The position numbers were made by a program, and so were the translations under genes. A stretch of 63,975 nucleotides of DNA from positions 1-63,975 of the forward strand of contig JAQQAL010000023.1 in NCBI GenBank assembly GCA_028532855.1. Direction: 5' to 3'. The DNA is from Candidatus Thalassospirochaeta sargassi. GTDB taxonomy: Bacteria > Spirochaetota > Spirochaetia > UBA9216. The notes beneath the pieces are model-generated. The model was given only the letters and a program-made list of their open reading frames with translations. It had not been told where the DNA came from and made no database searches. Shown here one piece after another: positions 36,544 through 41,193 of the stretch; position 1 is the stretch's first letter; the number at the start of each line of letters is the position of its first letter.

Positions 36544-36572
36544 TTGACACTTAAAAAAGTCTCACTTAGAAT
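36544..36572 (+). promoter_or_regulatory. Promoter of the molybdate/tungstate-type operon
   Basis: Consensus TTGACA (36544-36549), 17-base spacer, TAGAAT (36567-36572). The expected start near 36579 is five bases before the first paired base of the riboswitch candidate, so the RNA fold lies at the very 5' end of the transcript. Confidence 0.7.
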
Positions 36573-36583
36573 CATTTTAATAA

Positions 36584-36678
36584 CTCCGAACTTTATCTTC
36601 CTAAAGCTTGTAATTGCCAGGGAATAAAGTCAATGGGAGCGATTGGAAACGATCGCGCCTTCCGTGTTTGAAAAGGAG
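36584..36678 (+). ncRNA. Candidate Moco/Tuco riboswitch
   Basis: The leader has the layout of the Moco RNA motif as I recall it from the E. coli moaA leader. Outer pairing is CTCC (36584-36587) with GGAG (36675-36678). A hairpin GCGATTG/CGATCGC (36639-36645 and 36650-36656) is closed by a GAAA tetraloop. Immediately 3' lies GCCTTCCGTGTTTGAAAAGG, matching the moaA segment CTCCCGTATCTGGAAAGG. The 5' side has GCTTGTAATTGCCAGGG, resembling GCTCGTAAAGATTGCCACC in E. coli. Downstream genes encode molybdate/tungstate-type binding and transport proteins, as expected. Moco versus Tuco cannot be decided by eye. Confidence 0.68.
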
Positions 36679-36771
36679 AGAATAAAAACTTATATGGTTA
36701 TACACCCATTCGATTTTATAACATCTATTAATTTATTATTGATTATTTCCTCCTGCCGGAACTGCCAGTTC

Positions 36772-36799: not shown

Positions 36800-36835
36800 G
36801 CTTACTCATATTTTAATAGTTAATTTGGAGGAACT

Positions 36836-38146
36836 ATGTCAAAATATCAGGAATATCTTGCAGAGCTTAAAAGTGCAACCTTGTTTCAGAATATAGAAGA
36901 TGAAGCACTGCTCAACCTATTGGATGTGATGAACCCTGAAATAGTATGCCGTAAGGCAGGAACAAGCGGGATCCCTTTTATTGATTTTGAAAAAGGCTTG
37001 TTTAATGTGGTGGTAAAAGGAAAACCCCTGGAAAAACTGGAAACCCGTCCTGACATCTACAATATGCCAAAACCGAATGAACCCGGCATGATGATGGGAG
37101 AGATTCCATGCTTATCTGAGATGCATAAGAGCCGTGCTCCGCTGGTAAAGCTCAAAGGGCCTCCCCCTCGCGGGCCAAAACACGATGATTTTGATCTTTA
37201 TCTGATGCTCATGAGCGGTGAAATGTTGACAAAATTCTACGGAGAGCAGTATGCCGATGCCCAGGGTAAAATGCTTCGGAATTTCCTAGGTATTCTGGCT
37301 CAGAAGGTGACCGATGTGCGCAGGGAGAAATCGGAGGCAATCACAAACTTCGAAAAAGAACTTGCACCCTATCGTCTGAATGTATTATGTGCGGGAGTAT
37401 CCATGAGACTGGTATTTGCCGCAGCTGAACAATGGAATGCTGAGAACCCCGAGTATCCTGCAGTAGTAACCCCCGGCGGCTCAGTTGATCTGATTCGGGA
37501 CTGCATAGGCGGTGCCCCATGCGACCTTCTAATCTCGGCGGATGACGAGATTGTCCGTTCTATGATGATGCCTGAATATGCAGCCGGATACCGTATTTGG
37601 GCAGGCAATAAAATGGTTGTGACAGGCGAAGGCATTTCCTCTGACAATTGGGAAGAACGTCTTCTTGCTGACGACGCAACCTTTAAACACCACGATCCTT
37701 ACGGAGATCCCGGCGGCTATAGGGCTGTTATGTCAATGCTGCTTGCAGATGCCTATAAACCAGGCCTTTCCGATAAACTAATGAATCATCCCGGACATAT
37801 CGGCATGGAAAAAGAGACAGGGCCTTTCGGGAATATGAAACAGGCAAAATATAATTTTATTTACCGTACTGTTCCAATCGCGACCGGCGCAGATTATGCA
37901 GAACTTCCTCCAATAATGGATCTCTCAGATCCCGAGCTTGCTGATGAATATGCGAAAATAAGCTTTGCAATTGACGAGCACACAGAGGTTCCGGCAACAC
38001 CTATAGCTCACGCACTTACAGTACCGAAAGCTTCGCTTCATAAAGAAGCTGCAAAGGAATTTGCAAGATTATTCTTATCGATGGTAAAAGAATCAGATGG
38101 TTTTCTGCCAAGACAAAGTATTGTCGGTGAAGATCCCCTTAAATAG
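36836..38146 (+). CDS. Cyclic-nucleotide-binding-like domain fused to WtpA/ModA-like oxyanion-binding domain
   Basis: 436 residues with no signal peptide, preceded by ggaggaact. Residues 1-165 resemble a CAP_ED domain (ATLFQNIEDEALLNLL, then MMMGEIPCLSEMHKSRAP with GE at 88-89 and R100, then a C-terminal helix). No helix-turn-helix follows. Residues 181-436 match tungstate/molybdate-binding WtpA: LNVLCAGVSMRLVF, a TPGGSVDLIRD phosphate-like loop, ISADDEIVRSMMMPEYA, NKMVV and DPYGDPGGYRA. WtpA is normally a secreted lipoprotein, so a cytoplasmic version is odd. It may sense or buffer molybdate/tungstate inside the cell. First gene of the riboswitch-led operon. Confidence 0.72.
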   Translation: MSKYQEYLAELKSATLFQNIEDEALLNLLDVMNPEIVCRKAGTSGIPFIDFEKGLFNVVVKGKPLEKLETRPDIYNMPKPNEPGMMMGEIPCLSEMHKSRAPLVKLKGPPPRGPKHDDFDLYLMLMSGEMLTKFYGEQYADAQGKMLRNFLGILAQKVTDVRREKSEAITNFEKELAPYRLNVLCAGVSMRLVFAAAEQWNAENPEYPAVVTPGGSVDLIRDCIGGAPCDLLISADDEIVRSMMMPEYAAGYRIWAGNKMVVTGEGISSDNWEERLLADDATFKHHDPYGDPGGYRAVMSMLLADAYKPGLSDKLMNHPGHIGMEKETGPFGNMKQAKYNFIYRTVPIATGADYAELPPIMDLSDPELADEYAKISFAIDEHTEVPATPIAHALTVPKASLHKEAAKEFARLFLSMVKESDGFLPRQSIVGEDPLK

Positions 38147-38197
38147 TAATCAATTGTGAATTTGTCAAATGTGACAAATAAAATACAAGGAGTAAAA

Positions 38198-39346
38198 ATG
38201 AAAAAACTACAGAAATTAACTACTATCCTGCTATTAACAATCTGCGCAATTTTTCCAATTGCGGCAGCCGGACAGACTGAATCCCAGACCCCGGCGGTAA
38301 CCGAAGAAATAACAGCTGACTCATCAGAACGAACTGTAACTGTTACCGACATGAGCGGAGATACAGTCACAATAGACGGTGAAATTAAGAAGATTATTAA
38401 TCTTTGGCCTTCAGCTACTTCCTCATTCTTCGTAATAGGTGCTGGAGATTTACTCACAGGTCTTGCCGTTAATACACCGGCCGTAATCAATTCATGGACA
38501 CAGTTGTTATATCCCGGCAGTACAGATATTCCAGCGTTCGGGGGAATATCCCCATCCATTGAAGAAATTGTCAATATGGATCCTGATCTGGTTATTGTAC
38601 ACCCTATGACAATTAAATCCGGGTATGCACAGCAGATTCGGGATATTGGAATTCCTGCGATTAACATATATTTCAGAGATTATGAAAGTATGACTAAGGC
38701 TTACACAATTCTTGGAGAAGTACTTGGCGGGGAATATCAGGAGAAGCTTATAGACTGGAATGCAGCTCTCGACTCCAGATTATCCAAGATAAGAGAACTT
38801 ACCGAACATATCAGTAATGAAGATCGTCCTGTTGTTTATTATACCACCGGTTCTGCTGAAAAATTGACAGAAACAATGGAAGCAAACAGTATTTTCAGCG
38901 ACTGGGTTGAATCTGCCGGGGGTTATTATGCTGGAAGGTTGATGGGAGAAAACGTACGGGAAACTACAGCTGAAGAAGTTTTTAAAATTAATCCTGATAT
39001 TATTATCTGCGGAGGCGTGAATCAGCATGTAGCAAAGCATGCCCTGGAAACAAAGACCGGATGGAAAGAACTGGATGCTGTGAAAAATAACCGAATTTAT
39101 ACAAACCCCTACGGTTGTTTCGCTTGGGATCGCTTCGGTCTTGAGAGTCTTCTTCAAATCCATTATGCGCTCTACATGATTCAGCCGGAAATTGCAGCTG
39201 CTGCCGGAATAACAAAAGATTCATTAATTGATGATGTAACTGATTTTTACAACACATATACCAATTTCAGTTTAAGCAGAACACAGGCGGAGAATATGCT
39301 CAATGGACTGCAGCCTGACGGTACAGTTGAAATACCTGTTCAATAA
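38198..39346 (+). CDS. Periplasmic binding protein, BtuF/FhuD/MolA type
   Basis: About 382 residues from ATG 38198 (caaggag at seven bases; the frame extends to 38156, but that start has no ribosome-binding site). Signal peptide LTTILLLTICAIFPIAAA, cut before GQTE. The class III binding-protein fold is evident: TVTVTDMSGDTVTIDGEIKKII, then EEIVNMDPDLVIV and the long connecting helix. This class carries siderophores, B12, haem or, in Haemophilus MolA and archaeal relatives, molybdate/tungstate. The riboswitch and WtpA-like neighbour favour the oxyanion. Confidence 0.85.
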   Translation: MKKLQKLTTILLLTICAIFPIAAAGQTESQTPAVTEEITADSSERTVTVTDMSGDTVTIDGEIKKIINLWPSATSSFFVIGAGDLLTGLAVNTPAVINSWTQLLYPGSTDIPAFGGISPSIEEIVNMDPDLVIVHPMTIKSGYAQQIRDIGIPAINIYFRDYESMTKAYTILGEVLGGEYQEKLIDWNAALDSRLSKIRELTEHISNEDRPVVYYTTGSAEKLTETMEANSIFSDWVESAGGYYAGRLMGENVRETTAEEVFKINPDIIICGGVNQHVAKHALETKTGWKELDAVKNNRIYTNPYGCFAWDRFGLESLLQIHYALYMIQPEIAAAAGITKDSLIDDVTDFYNTYTNFSLSRTQAENMLNGLQPDGTVEIPVQ

Positions 39347-39355
39347 CGAATTGAA

Positions 39356-40426
39356 ATGACAGATACTGTTAAAAAAACTTCTGCTCTTTCCACACTAAAC
39401 GGGAAGAGCAGAAGTAATAAATGGGAATTTGCATTAGTAATCGCCATATCTTTAATCTCGCTCTTTGTGCTTTTTACAACTTCTCTAGCCGTAGGAAGAT
39501 ACAGCATTCCTTTTGATTACACATTAAAGATTTTGTTCTCTAAAATATTTTTCATCGAAAAGGTATGGGGAGACATTCAGGAAGCTGTCGTTTTTAATCT
39601 TCGTCTTCCGCGGAGCACAGCGGCTGTACTGATAGGGGCAGCACTCTCCCTATCAGGTGCAACCTACCAGAGCATTTTCAAAAATCCGCTGGTATCGCCT
39701 GATCTTCTCGGCGTCTCTGGAGGAGCCTGTGTCGGGGCTGCTATAGCTATACTGATGAGTGCAGGAAGCACCATAATACAGCTCGGAGCCTTTGCAGGAG
39801 GGTTGATTGCTGTTGGAATAACAGTCTCTATCCCTACACTGATTCGAAACACCTCTACTATTATTCTGGTCCTATCGGGAATAGTCATTAGCAGTCTGAT
39901 GTCATCTATTATAAGCATCATCAAGTTTGTGGCTGATACAGACACCCAGCTGGCAGAAATTACTTATTGGCTGATGGGGTCTTTCGCCTCTATAAGCTTT
40001 ATACAAATGCTGCCGGTACTTCCTACAATTATCATTCCTGTTGTAATTATACTGCTCATGCGGTACCGGCTTAATGTTCTTTCTCTTGGTGATATGGAAG
40101 CTAAATCTTTAGGTATTAATCTTGGTTACACAAGAGGAATATTCATTCTATGTTCAACCCTTATAACCGCCGGATGTGTCAGCCTATCGGGAACAATAGG
40201 ATGGGTCGGGCTTGTTATACCACATACAGCCCGTATGATTATCGGTGCTGATAACAAAAGAATGCTGCCTGTAACTATGATTTTCGGGGGCATCTTCATG
40301 CTGGCTATTGATATTCTCAGTAGAACAATAACATCTGCCGAGCTGAGATTAGGTATCCTTACAGGAATAATAGGAGCACCTTTTTTCTTATTTATTCTTT
40401 TTAAACAAAAGGAGCAGCTGAAATGA
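39356..40426 (+). CDS. FecCD/BtuC/MolB-family ABC permease
   Basis: 356 residues with about ten membrane helices. Family blocks are RLPRSTAAVLIGAALSLSGATYQSIFKNPLVSPDLLGVSGGA and, near the C-terminus, GTIGWVGLVIPHTARMIIGADNKRMLP. It forms the homodimeric channel of a type II importer. Nine bases separate it from the binding-protein gene, and its stop overlaps the ATPase start (ATGA), so the three genes are one transport unit. Confidence 0.94.
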   Translation: MTDTVKKTSALSTLNGKSRSNKWEFALVIAISLISLFVLFTTSLAVGRYSIPFDYTLKILFSKIFFIEKVWGDIQEAVVFNLRLPRSTAAVLIGAALSLSGATYQSIFKNPLVSPDLLGVSGGACVGAAIAILMSAGSTIIQLGAFAGGLIAVGITVSIPTLIRNTSTIILVLSGIVISSLMSSIISIIKFVADTDTQLAEITYWLMGSFASISFIQMLPVLPTIIIPVVIILLMRYRLNVLSLGDMEAKSLGINLGYTRGIFILCSTLITAGCVSLSGTIGWVGLVIPHTARMIIGADNKRMLPVTMIFGGIFMLAIDILSRTITSAELRLGILTGIIGAPFFLFILFKQKEQLK

Positions 40427-41193
40427 TTCTGGAAGCAAAAAATCTGAGTTTCAGTTATCAAAAAAGCAGAACAATTTTTAATAACGTCAGTTTCAGAATC
40501 GATGCTGGAGAAATCCTTACTATCCTGGGTACAAATGGAGCAGGAAAATCAACTCTTCTTAATTGTATTGCCAATATGTATAAACCTGATTCAGGGGAAA
40601 TCCTGCTCAATGGTAAGCGAATGTCGGATATGGACATCAGTGATGTAGCGAAGCTGATAGGTTATGTACCGCAGCTCAATTCACCTGCTTACGGTTACAG
40701 CGTACTTGAATATGTTGTAATGGGAAGAACGCCGTATATAGGAGCTTTTTCAACTCCGGGGGCTGAAGATTACCAGATAGCAAACGAATCTATTGAGAAA
40801 ATGGATATCATGCATCTCAGAGATAAGCCTTATACTCAGATTTCAGGCGGAGAGCAGCAGCAGGTTCAAATAGCCCGAAGTCTGGCTCAACAGACAAAAA
40901 TCATACTTTTAGATGAACCTACTGCCCATCTTGATTACGGCAACCAGTTCCGTGTCGTAGAAATGATCCGTAATTTAGCAAAGGAAGGTTATTCTATGAT
41001 TATGACTACCCATAATCCTGAACATGCCTTTATTTTAACTGGAAAAGTAGCCATTCTTAACCGAGACGGCATGCTTTGTGTTGGTTGTGCAGAAGATACC
41101 CTTGATGCCGGAACACTTTCTGAGCTATACGCGCTATCTATTAAAACAAAGTACGATGCCGATGCAAAACGCAAGATTTGCATAGTTTGTTAA
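40423..41193 (+). CDS. ABC importer ATPase, BtuD/FhuC/MolC type
   Basis: 256 residues. Walker A GTNGAGKST (about 36-44), Q-loop YVPQLNSP, signature ISGGEQQQVQIARSLAQ, Walker B IILLDEPTAHLD and switch histidine MTTHNPEHA are all intact. ATP hydrolysis by its dimer drives the FecCD-type permease. It is the last gene of the riboswitch-led operon; no clear terminator follows before the decayed hrpB copy. Confidence 0.95.
   Translation: MILEAKNLSFSYQKSRTIFNNVSFRIDAGEILTILGTNGAGKSTLLNCIANMYKPDSGEILLNGKRMSDMDISDVAKLIGYVPQLNSPAYGYSVLEYVVMGRTPYIGAFSTPGAEDYQIANESIEKMDIMHLRDKPYTQISGGEQQQVQIARSLAQQTKIILLDEPTAHLDYGNQFRVVEMIRNLAKEGYSMIMTTHNPEHAFILTGKVAILNRDGMLCVGCAEDTLDAGTLSELYALSIKTKYDADAKRKICIVC

Follow-up and report, generated by a model that had tools for sequence, protein, structure and literature searches.

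The route that molybdate and tungstate take from an importer to the cofactor-building enzymes is, to our knowledge, poorly understood, and transit through the cell is assumed to involve free oxyanions or TOBE-type binders. We also know of neither a cytoplasmic WtpA-like partner nor a Moco riboswitch for the MolABC importer. MolABC itself (HI1470-1472), from Haemophilus influenzae, is an importer of type II that takes up molybdate and tungstate (PMC4031551). In the binding protein WtpA, the direct metal ligands are Asp160 and Glu218, and Asp160 is what makes P. furiosus WtpA selective for tungstate (PMC10221389). At the RNA level, members of the Moco/Tuco riboswitch family RF01055 that lack P3 have been tied to tungsten-cofactor use by Regulski et al. 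(PMC2408646). Receptor-like domains are also found inside the cell: TaoR and TaoR-like regulators of tungsten metabolism join a PBP-like domain to a DNA-binding helix-turn-helix (PMC11980592), and TaoR is the nearest precedent for the protein described here.

We analyzed a window of 63,975 nucleotides from Candidatus Thalassospirochaeta sargassi (assembly GCA_028532855.1, contig JAQQAL010000023.1, positions 1 to 63,975 of the forward strand). An ATG-started open reading frame at 36836-38146 (+), with 436 codons for 436 residues, encodes a two-part protein that stands under a riboswitch and ahead of an importer. The WtpA domain, the riboswitch, and the importer are each of an already known kind; the RNA is an ordinary, clear P3-less member of RF01055, and the novelty lies in the gene that it controls. 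The features of the locus are as follows:

36544..36572, +, sigma-70-like promoter TTGACA-17-TAGAAT (11/12 in a consensus scan), ending exactly at the aptamer start
36572..36694, +, Moco/Tuco riboswitch aptamer RF01055, P3-less (70.8 bits, gathering score 36, full model 1-135; P3 deleted in the alignment)
36747..36753, +, TTCCTCC, 7 nt perfectly complementary to the ribosome-binding site and paired with GGAGGAA at 36827-36833 in the minimum-energy fold
36827..36833, +, Shine-Dalgarno GGAGGAA of the fusion gene, from the sequence, with TTGGAGGAAC immediately 5' of the ATG
36836..37375, +, unclassified N-terminal domain, residues 1-180, at most cNBD-like, with a long helix predicted at its end (about 137-179); from conservation, with no Pfam match and AF2 pLDDT low outside the helices
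37376..38143, +, oxyanion-binding domain of the WtpA type, residues 181-436, in which D291 corresponds to WtpA Asp160 and HPGHIGM at 318-324 is family-specific; from profiles, alignments, and structure comparison
38156..39346, +, exported Peripla_BP_2 receptor of the importer (Pfam 1.6e-13; hydrophobic N-terminus), likely start ATG 38198
39356..40426, +, FecCD-type permease (Pfam 1.2e-84), nearest solved relative HI1471 (MolB; 3.4e-62, next 5.5e-49)
40423..41193, +, ABC ATPase, FecE-like (Pfam 4e-36), without TOBE or other C-terminal regulatory domain

The reading frame is real beyond chance: seven genomes share an indel-free protein of exactly 436 codons, and an eighth, more divergent protein has the same architecture. 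Against the six relatives of 66-73% identity, no indel was found. Where sequence pairs allowed an estimate, dN/dS was about 0.06-0.15 and equal in the N-terminal and C-terminal halves; thus, the N-terminal domain is constrained as strongly as the binding domain.

The first-pass annotation had assigned the C-terminal part to the WtpA type on the strength of the motifs GGSVDLIRD, MMMPEYA, and DPYGDPGGYRA, all of which are found in the protein, and the assignment is borne out by several methods. Residues 181-415 match Pfam SBP_bac_11 over its cut-off (1.8e-10), and within them residues 181-329 match the NCBIfam WtpA model TIGR03730 (1.2e-31), with a score of 109.9 bits that lies under the equivalog cut-off of 242.75; for comparison, a true WtpA (L020) scores 306.4 bits. 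The closest solved relatives of the domain are five archaeal WtpA/ModA proteins. An AF2 model of residues 179-436 superimposes on WtpA structure 3k6u with a VIA-align Z of 22.5 and an rmsd of 2.9 over 252 residues, from alignment rows that span residues 178-431, and Foldseek gives an E value of 1.9e-19. The likeness to WtpA and archaeal-type ModA (TIGR03730; 3k6u, 2onk, 3cfx, 3cg1) covers the fold of residues 178-436, the GS loop of the pocket, the N258 region, and D291, the Asp160 equivalent. D291 lies within DPGGYR and is invariant across all cytoplasmic members aligned; together with the pocket residues G215-S216 and N258, it belongs to a set that is nearly or fully invariant in the family. 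Because the tungstate-selectivity residue of P. furiosus WtpA is kept in this way, the domain likely binds an oxyanion.

The second ligand region differs. The helix that carries Glu218 in WtpA is remodelled and rebuilt as HPGHIGM[ED], a motif that is at least nearly invariant in the family and, like the family-invariant C229, is missing from exported WtpAs. Residue 325 is E or D in all nine aligned proteins, its correspondence to Glu218 being uncertain. The idea that Glu218 falls in a deleted segment was dropped: the region is merely 3 residues shorter than in the bacterial exported WtpAs examined, which themselves lack a Glu in that column.

Unlike WtpA and ModA, the fusion protein has no signal peptide, carries an additional N-terminal domain, and has no WtpB or WtpC beside it, its neighbors being the Peripla_BP_2, FecCD, and FecE-like ATPase genes. 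In residues 1-50 the maximum 12-residue Kyte-Doolittle value is 0.88, compared with 2.3-3.7 in seven of eight exported WtpAs and 2.85 in the neighboring exported binding protein; in the eighth exported WtpA (W_L009) the hydrophobic stretch is placed later and the start is apparently over-long. The same scan found a hydrophobic N-terminus or signal peptide in no member of the cytoplasmic family. This agrees with the first-pass reading that the protein has neither signal peptide nor membrane helix, and disposes of that reading's own caveat that homologs might be exported. The sequence data thus support a cytoplasmic location of the WtpA-type domain. No helix-turn-helix was found in a Pfam scan, as had been predicted; in the place of the CRP/FNR-type C-terminal DNA-binding domain, residues 181-436 form the binding-protein domain. 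The same scan gave no match to TOBE. The protein therefore differs from TaoR in having no DNA-binding part, and also in its PBP domain, which is WtpA-type (SBP_bac_11) and not PBP_like. Mop/Tub, ModG, and other TOBE binders have the same expected role, intracellular handling of molybdate and tungstate, but an unrelated fold.

The N-terminal domain is 65-73% identical in six relatives and 47% identical in L048. It had been described as a CAP_ED domain in residues 1-165, and this description did not hold up. No Pfam family matched this domain in the window protein or in seven relatives, and PF00027 in particular was absent from all of them, although the same genome gives 13 other PF00027 matches. 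The best solved-structure matches are the regulatory cNBDs of PKG and PKA, at weak E values of 0.16-0.4. In a profile alignment with cNBDs, EPGMMMGEIPCLS lines up with their GE motif, and helix C is matched by the long helix. Compared by hhalign with 59 true cNBD sequences, the N-terminal profile aligns in register at P 0.054, a score that 7 of 100 column-permuted profiles reach as well, and in an hmmsearch with the cNBD profile the single-sequence scores of most members lie within the shuffled range, so that the comparison stays within chance. AF2 alignments were too shallow for this fold: the full protein (8 rows) gave a mean pLDDT of 62.6, and the domain alone (6 rows) gave 43, low except in the helices. 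A cyclic-nucleotide-type fold for residues 1-180 is thus plausible but unproven. The GE at 88-89 and R100 named as its key residues are present, and E89 is invariant; however, L005 has Q in place of R100, and L048 has A in place of G88 and, reading MAEIPSLS in that region, no counterpart of R100. With the fold undemonstrated and these residues variable, the proposed sensing of cAMP or c-di-GMP is unsupported. Conservation in the domain peaks in the helix MLRNFLGILAxKVxDxR (146-162), and this points to a surface for dimerization or partner contact.

The aptamer, which the first-pass annotation had not picked up, ends 142 bases before the ATG of the fusion gene. The promoter-like site fits a transcript that would begin with the aptamer, its placement not being proof of function. 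Pairing of TTCCTCC with the ribosome-binding site could act as a translational switch; the fold z of the whole region is only -0.46, the leader folding no better than shuffles. A search for a terminator between the riboswitch and the fusion gene found none. A riboswitch or a weaker match lies upstream of all seven other loci that have upstream sequence, a count that leaves out L004, with too little upstream sequence, and L048, where the operon start is off the contig. RF01055 matches are above the gathering score in L001, L003, L005, L006, and the L007 operon, and sub-gathering matches occur in the expected place in L002 (33.5 bits, 3e-6) and L055 (30 bits, 4e-5). P3 positions are deleted in the window and in L006; a P3-like stem is seen in L001, L003, L005, and L007, most of the relatives above the gathering score. 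The family therefore spans both Mo- and W-type regulation and cannot as a whole be called tungsten-specific.

Among all solved permeases, HI1471 is the best match of the window permease, and the importer is predicted to be of the MolABC type and to transport molybdate or tungstate. The locus shares with MolABC the FecCD permease nearest HI1471, a Peripla_BP_2 receptor, and the operon logic, while the window receptor is only distantly like MolA (2e-4). Within the reach of the contigs, each fusion locus pairs its fusion gene with a MolB-type importer. L048 and L086 have a changed gene order, SBP-FecCD-ATPase-fusion, with the fusion gene last, and in L055 a MOT1-type molybdate transporter is next in line (2.1e-52). 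The cytoplasmic WtpA-like domain also occurs in a standalone form. At L007 4530-8777 an apparent single operon consists of a Moco riboswitch, ModA, ModB, ModC, DUF364 (putative heavy-metal chelation), and a standalone cytoplasmic WtpA-like protein; at L006 the standalone form is directly below a P3-less riboswitch with no importer directly adjoining. The first-pass link to molybdate or tungstate is strengthened by the Moco riboswitch, the MolB-like permease, the MOT1 gene, and the standalone copy with ModABC, and we regard a Mo/W function of the protein as highly probable.

The two-part architecture is also found in metagenome-assembled genomes labelled Lutispora, Clostridiaceae, Dehalococcoidales, and Atribacterota, four of the genomes coming on short contigs from one sampling project (Sandtown), so that phylum labels there are possibly binning errors. 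Further two-part relatives come from another Atribacterota genome (L023/L055) and, in the divergent L048, from the order of an Oscillospiraceae genome; L005, L055, L048, and the window genome are independent sources. Searches of related genomes added little. The host's own copy was the only one in 97 genomes of its relatives, the query's own copy the only one in 301 genomes of the Dehalococcoidales phylum, and nothing new appeared in 391 genomes of the Lutispora class, while three of 50 Atribacterota genomes had relatives and the 394 genomes of the Oscillospiraceae order yielded a single new one with the fusion (G940). Viral contigs held no relatives, and the plasmids searched held only distant exported haloarchaeal binding proteins. 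Since the host's genus and family relatives are without the gene, it was probably acquired horizontally. In a phylogenetic tree, the fusions, the standalone forms, and L049 group together outside the clade of exported WtpAs with support of 100/99; the fusion form is not resolved as a single clade, and the inner order is unsure, with some long rows. L049 1019-2752 (+), and likewise L087, encodes another combination, a protein of 577 aa that joins a SAM methyltransferase and a cytoplasmic WtpA-like domain, with a flavoprotein gene (PF02441) directly 5' and an alpha/beta hydrolase 3'; no riboswitch was found at this methyltransferase fusion.

With six RF01055 copies and four genes of the aldehyde oxidoreductase type (AFOR_C) in its genome, the host is likely a tungsten user. 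One of the riboswitch copies precedes an AFOR_C gene, and another, a third riboswitch, precedes a TupA-like ABC set (1e-66, under the cut-off). This set (L052 4579-7232, minus strand) consists of a TupA-like binding protein, a permease, and a TOBE-bearing ATPase; since it too stands under a Moco riboswitch, the host seems to have two tungstate routes. Further Moco riboswitch matches were noted. A copy of 72.8 bits (L050; G000:C22:247980-248096) precedes an ORF at L050 2272-3705 that reads, by eye and not by profile, like adenylosuccinate lyase, an odd target for this riboswitch. At L053 2347-7232 (-), a copy of 63.9 bits is followed by an ABC binding protein of the sugar type, a protein that weakly matches PF00174 (molybdopterin oxidoreductase domain), and an ABC permease. 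At L054 6967-7875 (-), a weak match of 38.5 bits overlaps the start of an ORF with weak likeness to TiaS and methanogenesis marker 11, in a bacterium.

The explanation that we favor, and to which we give an even chance, is a cofactor-repressed cytoplasmic capture protein or chaperone for molybdate and tungstate. When the Mo/W cofactor is scarce, the MolABC-like importer and the fusion protein would be made together; when it is plentiful, the P3-less Moco-family riboswitch would shut the operon off, a direction carried over from the E. coli case. The C-terminal domain would close on the imported oxyanion, with D291 as a direct metal ligand, and hold it for cofactor synthesis, perhaps delivering it to MoeA-like enzymes. 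The N-terminal domain and its long helix would most likely bring about dimerization, with possible control of release or docking. The fold, the missing export signal, the operon, the riboswitch, and the conservation behind this proposal are read from the sequences. A general capture protein fits because the riboswitch, and not one transporter, is the constant partner. Points against it are that a sensor would have an identical operon, that Glu218 is without a certain counterpart, and that the P3-like stems in most relatives with an above-gathering riboswitch bar a claim of tungsten specificity for the family. In a tentative extension, which we hold at somewhat less than an even chance, the proteins form a receptor-derived cytoplasmic family unrelated to TOBE and MoSto proteins, acting as an oxyanion chaperone behind the importer, with the N-terminal domain as its link to the importer or else to a second signal.

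The sensor in question would gate the importer: the WtpA-type domain would read cytoplasmic oxyanion, and the N-terminal domain would act on the ATPase in the manner of the TOBE-type regulatory domains of trans-inhibited ModBC. Such gating of the downstream transporter, raised in the first-pass annotation, is not favored, and we consider it unlikely. On the one hand, the form with the N-terminal domain is strictly linked to the MolABC-like importer, even where the gene order is altered, which keeps the idea alive; standalone forms are found away from this importer, and its ATPase carries no built-in regulatory domain. On the other hand, forms without the N-terminal domain adjoin ModABC or no importer, and cofactor control is already present at the RNA level. 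Because the domain occurs with MolABC-like importers, with ModABC, and once without an adjoining importer, a carrier fits better than a single-transporter gate. An intracellular store or buffer like Mop/Tub or MoSto would likewise place the binding domain inside the cell, and Tub of E. limosum shows that such stores exist (PMC11980592); however, a store should be made at metal plenty, when the riboswitch is expected to turn the gene off, so capture and handing-on fit better, and with a single ion per 436 residues, which is poor storage, this reading is improbable. We regard as quite improbable that the pocket takes another ligand, such as a cofactor intermediate or a metal complex, in a protein that would work as an enzyme or carry a cofactor; HPGHIGM and C229, conserved here and missing from exported WtpAs, and the fusion of one relative domain to a methyltransferase speak for it, but against it stands the conservation of D291, the metal ligand, and of G215-S216 and N258 in the pocket. 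CAP_ED-type sensing of a cyclic nucleotide or other small ligand, coupled to oxyanion release, is very improbable: the helix-strand pattern and GE motif are in register with cNBDs, and PKG/PKA domains are the top PDB matches (though at E 0.2-0.4), but Pfam finds no match, permuted profiles reach the score, and the key R and G vary. Least credible, and in our view extremely improbable, is a plain periplasmic receptor exported by an unusual route, for which the WtpA homology might be cited; no member has a hydrophobic segment, and WtpA does not serve importers of this type, which here comes with an exported receptor of its own.

In the open literature searched, we found no report of WtpA combined with a cyclic-nucleotide-binding domain and none of a cytoplasmic family of WtpA-like proteins that has its own unclassified N-terminal domain. 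A cytoplasmic WtpA-like protein under cofactor-riboswitch control and co-produced with its importer would present itself directly as a candidate carrier or sensor inside the cell, and a periplasmic receptor fold would have been re-used in the cytoplasm without a DNA-binding domain. The W-linked (P3-less) and Mo-linked (P3-bearing) versions of one protein offer a comparison for metal choice. The family may represent a so far undescribed way for some anaerobic bacteria to catch scarce molybdenum or tungsten after uptake.
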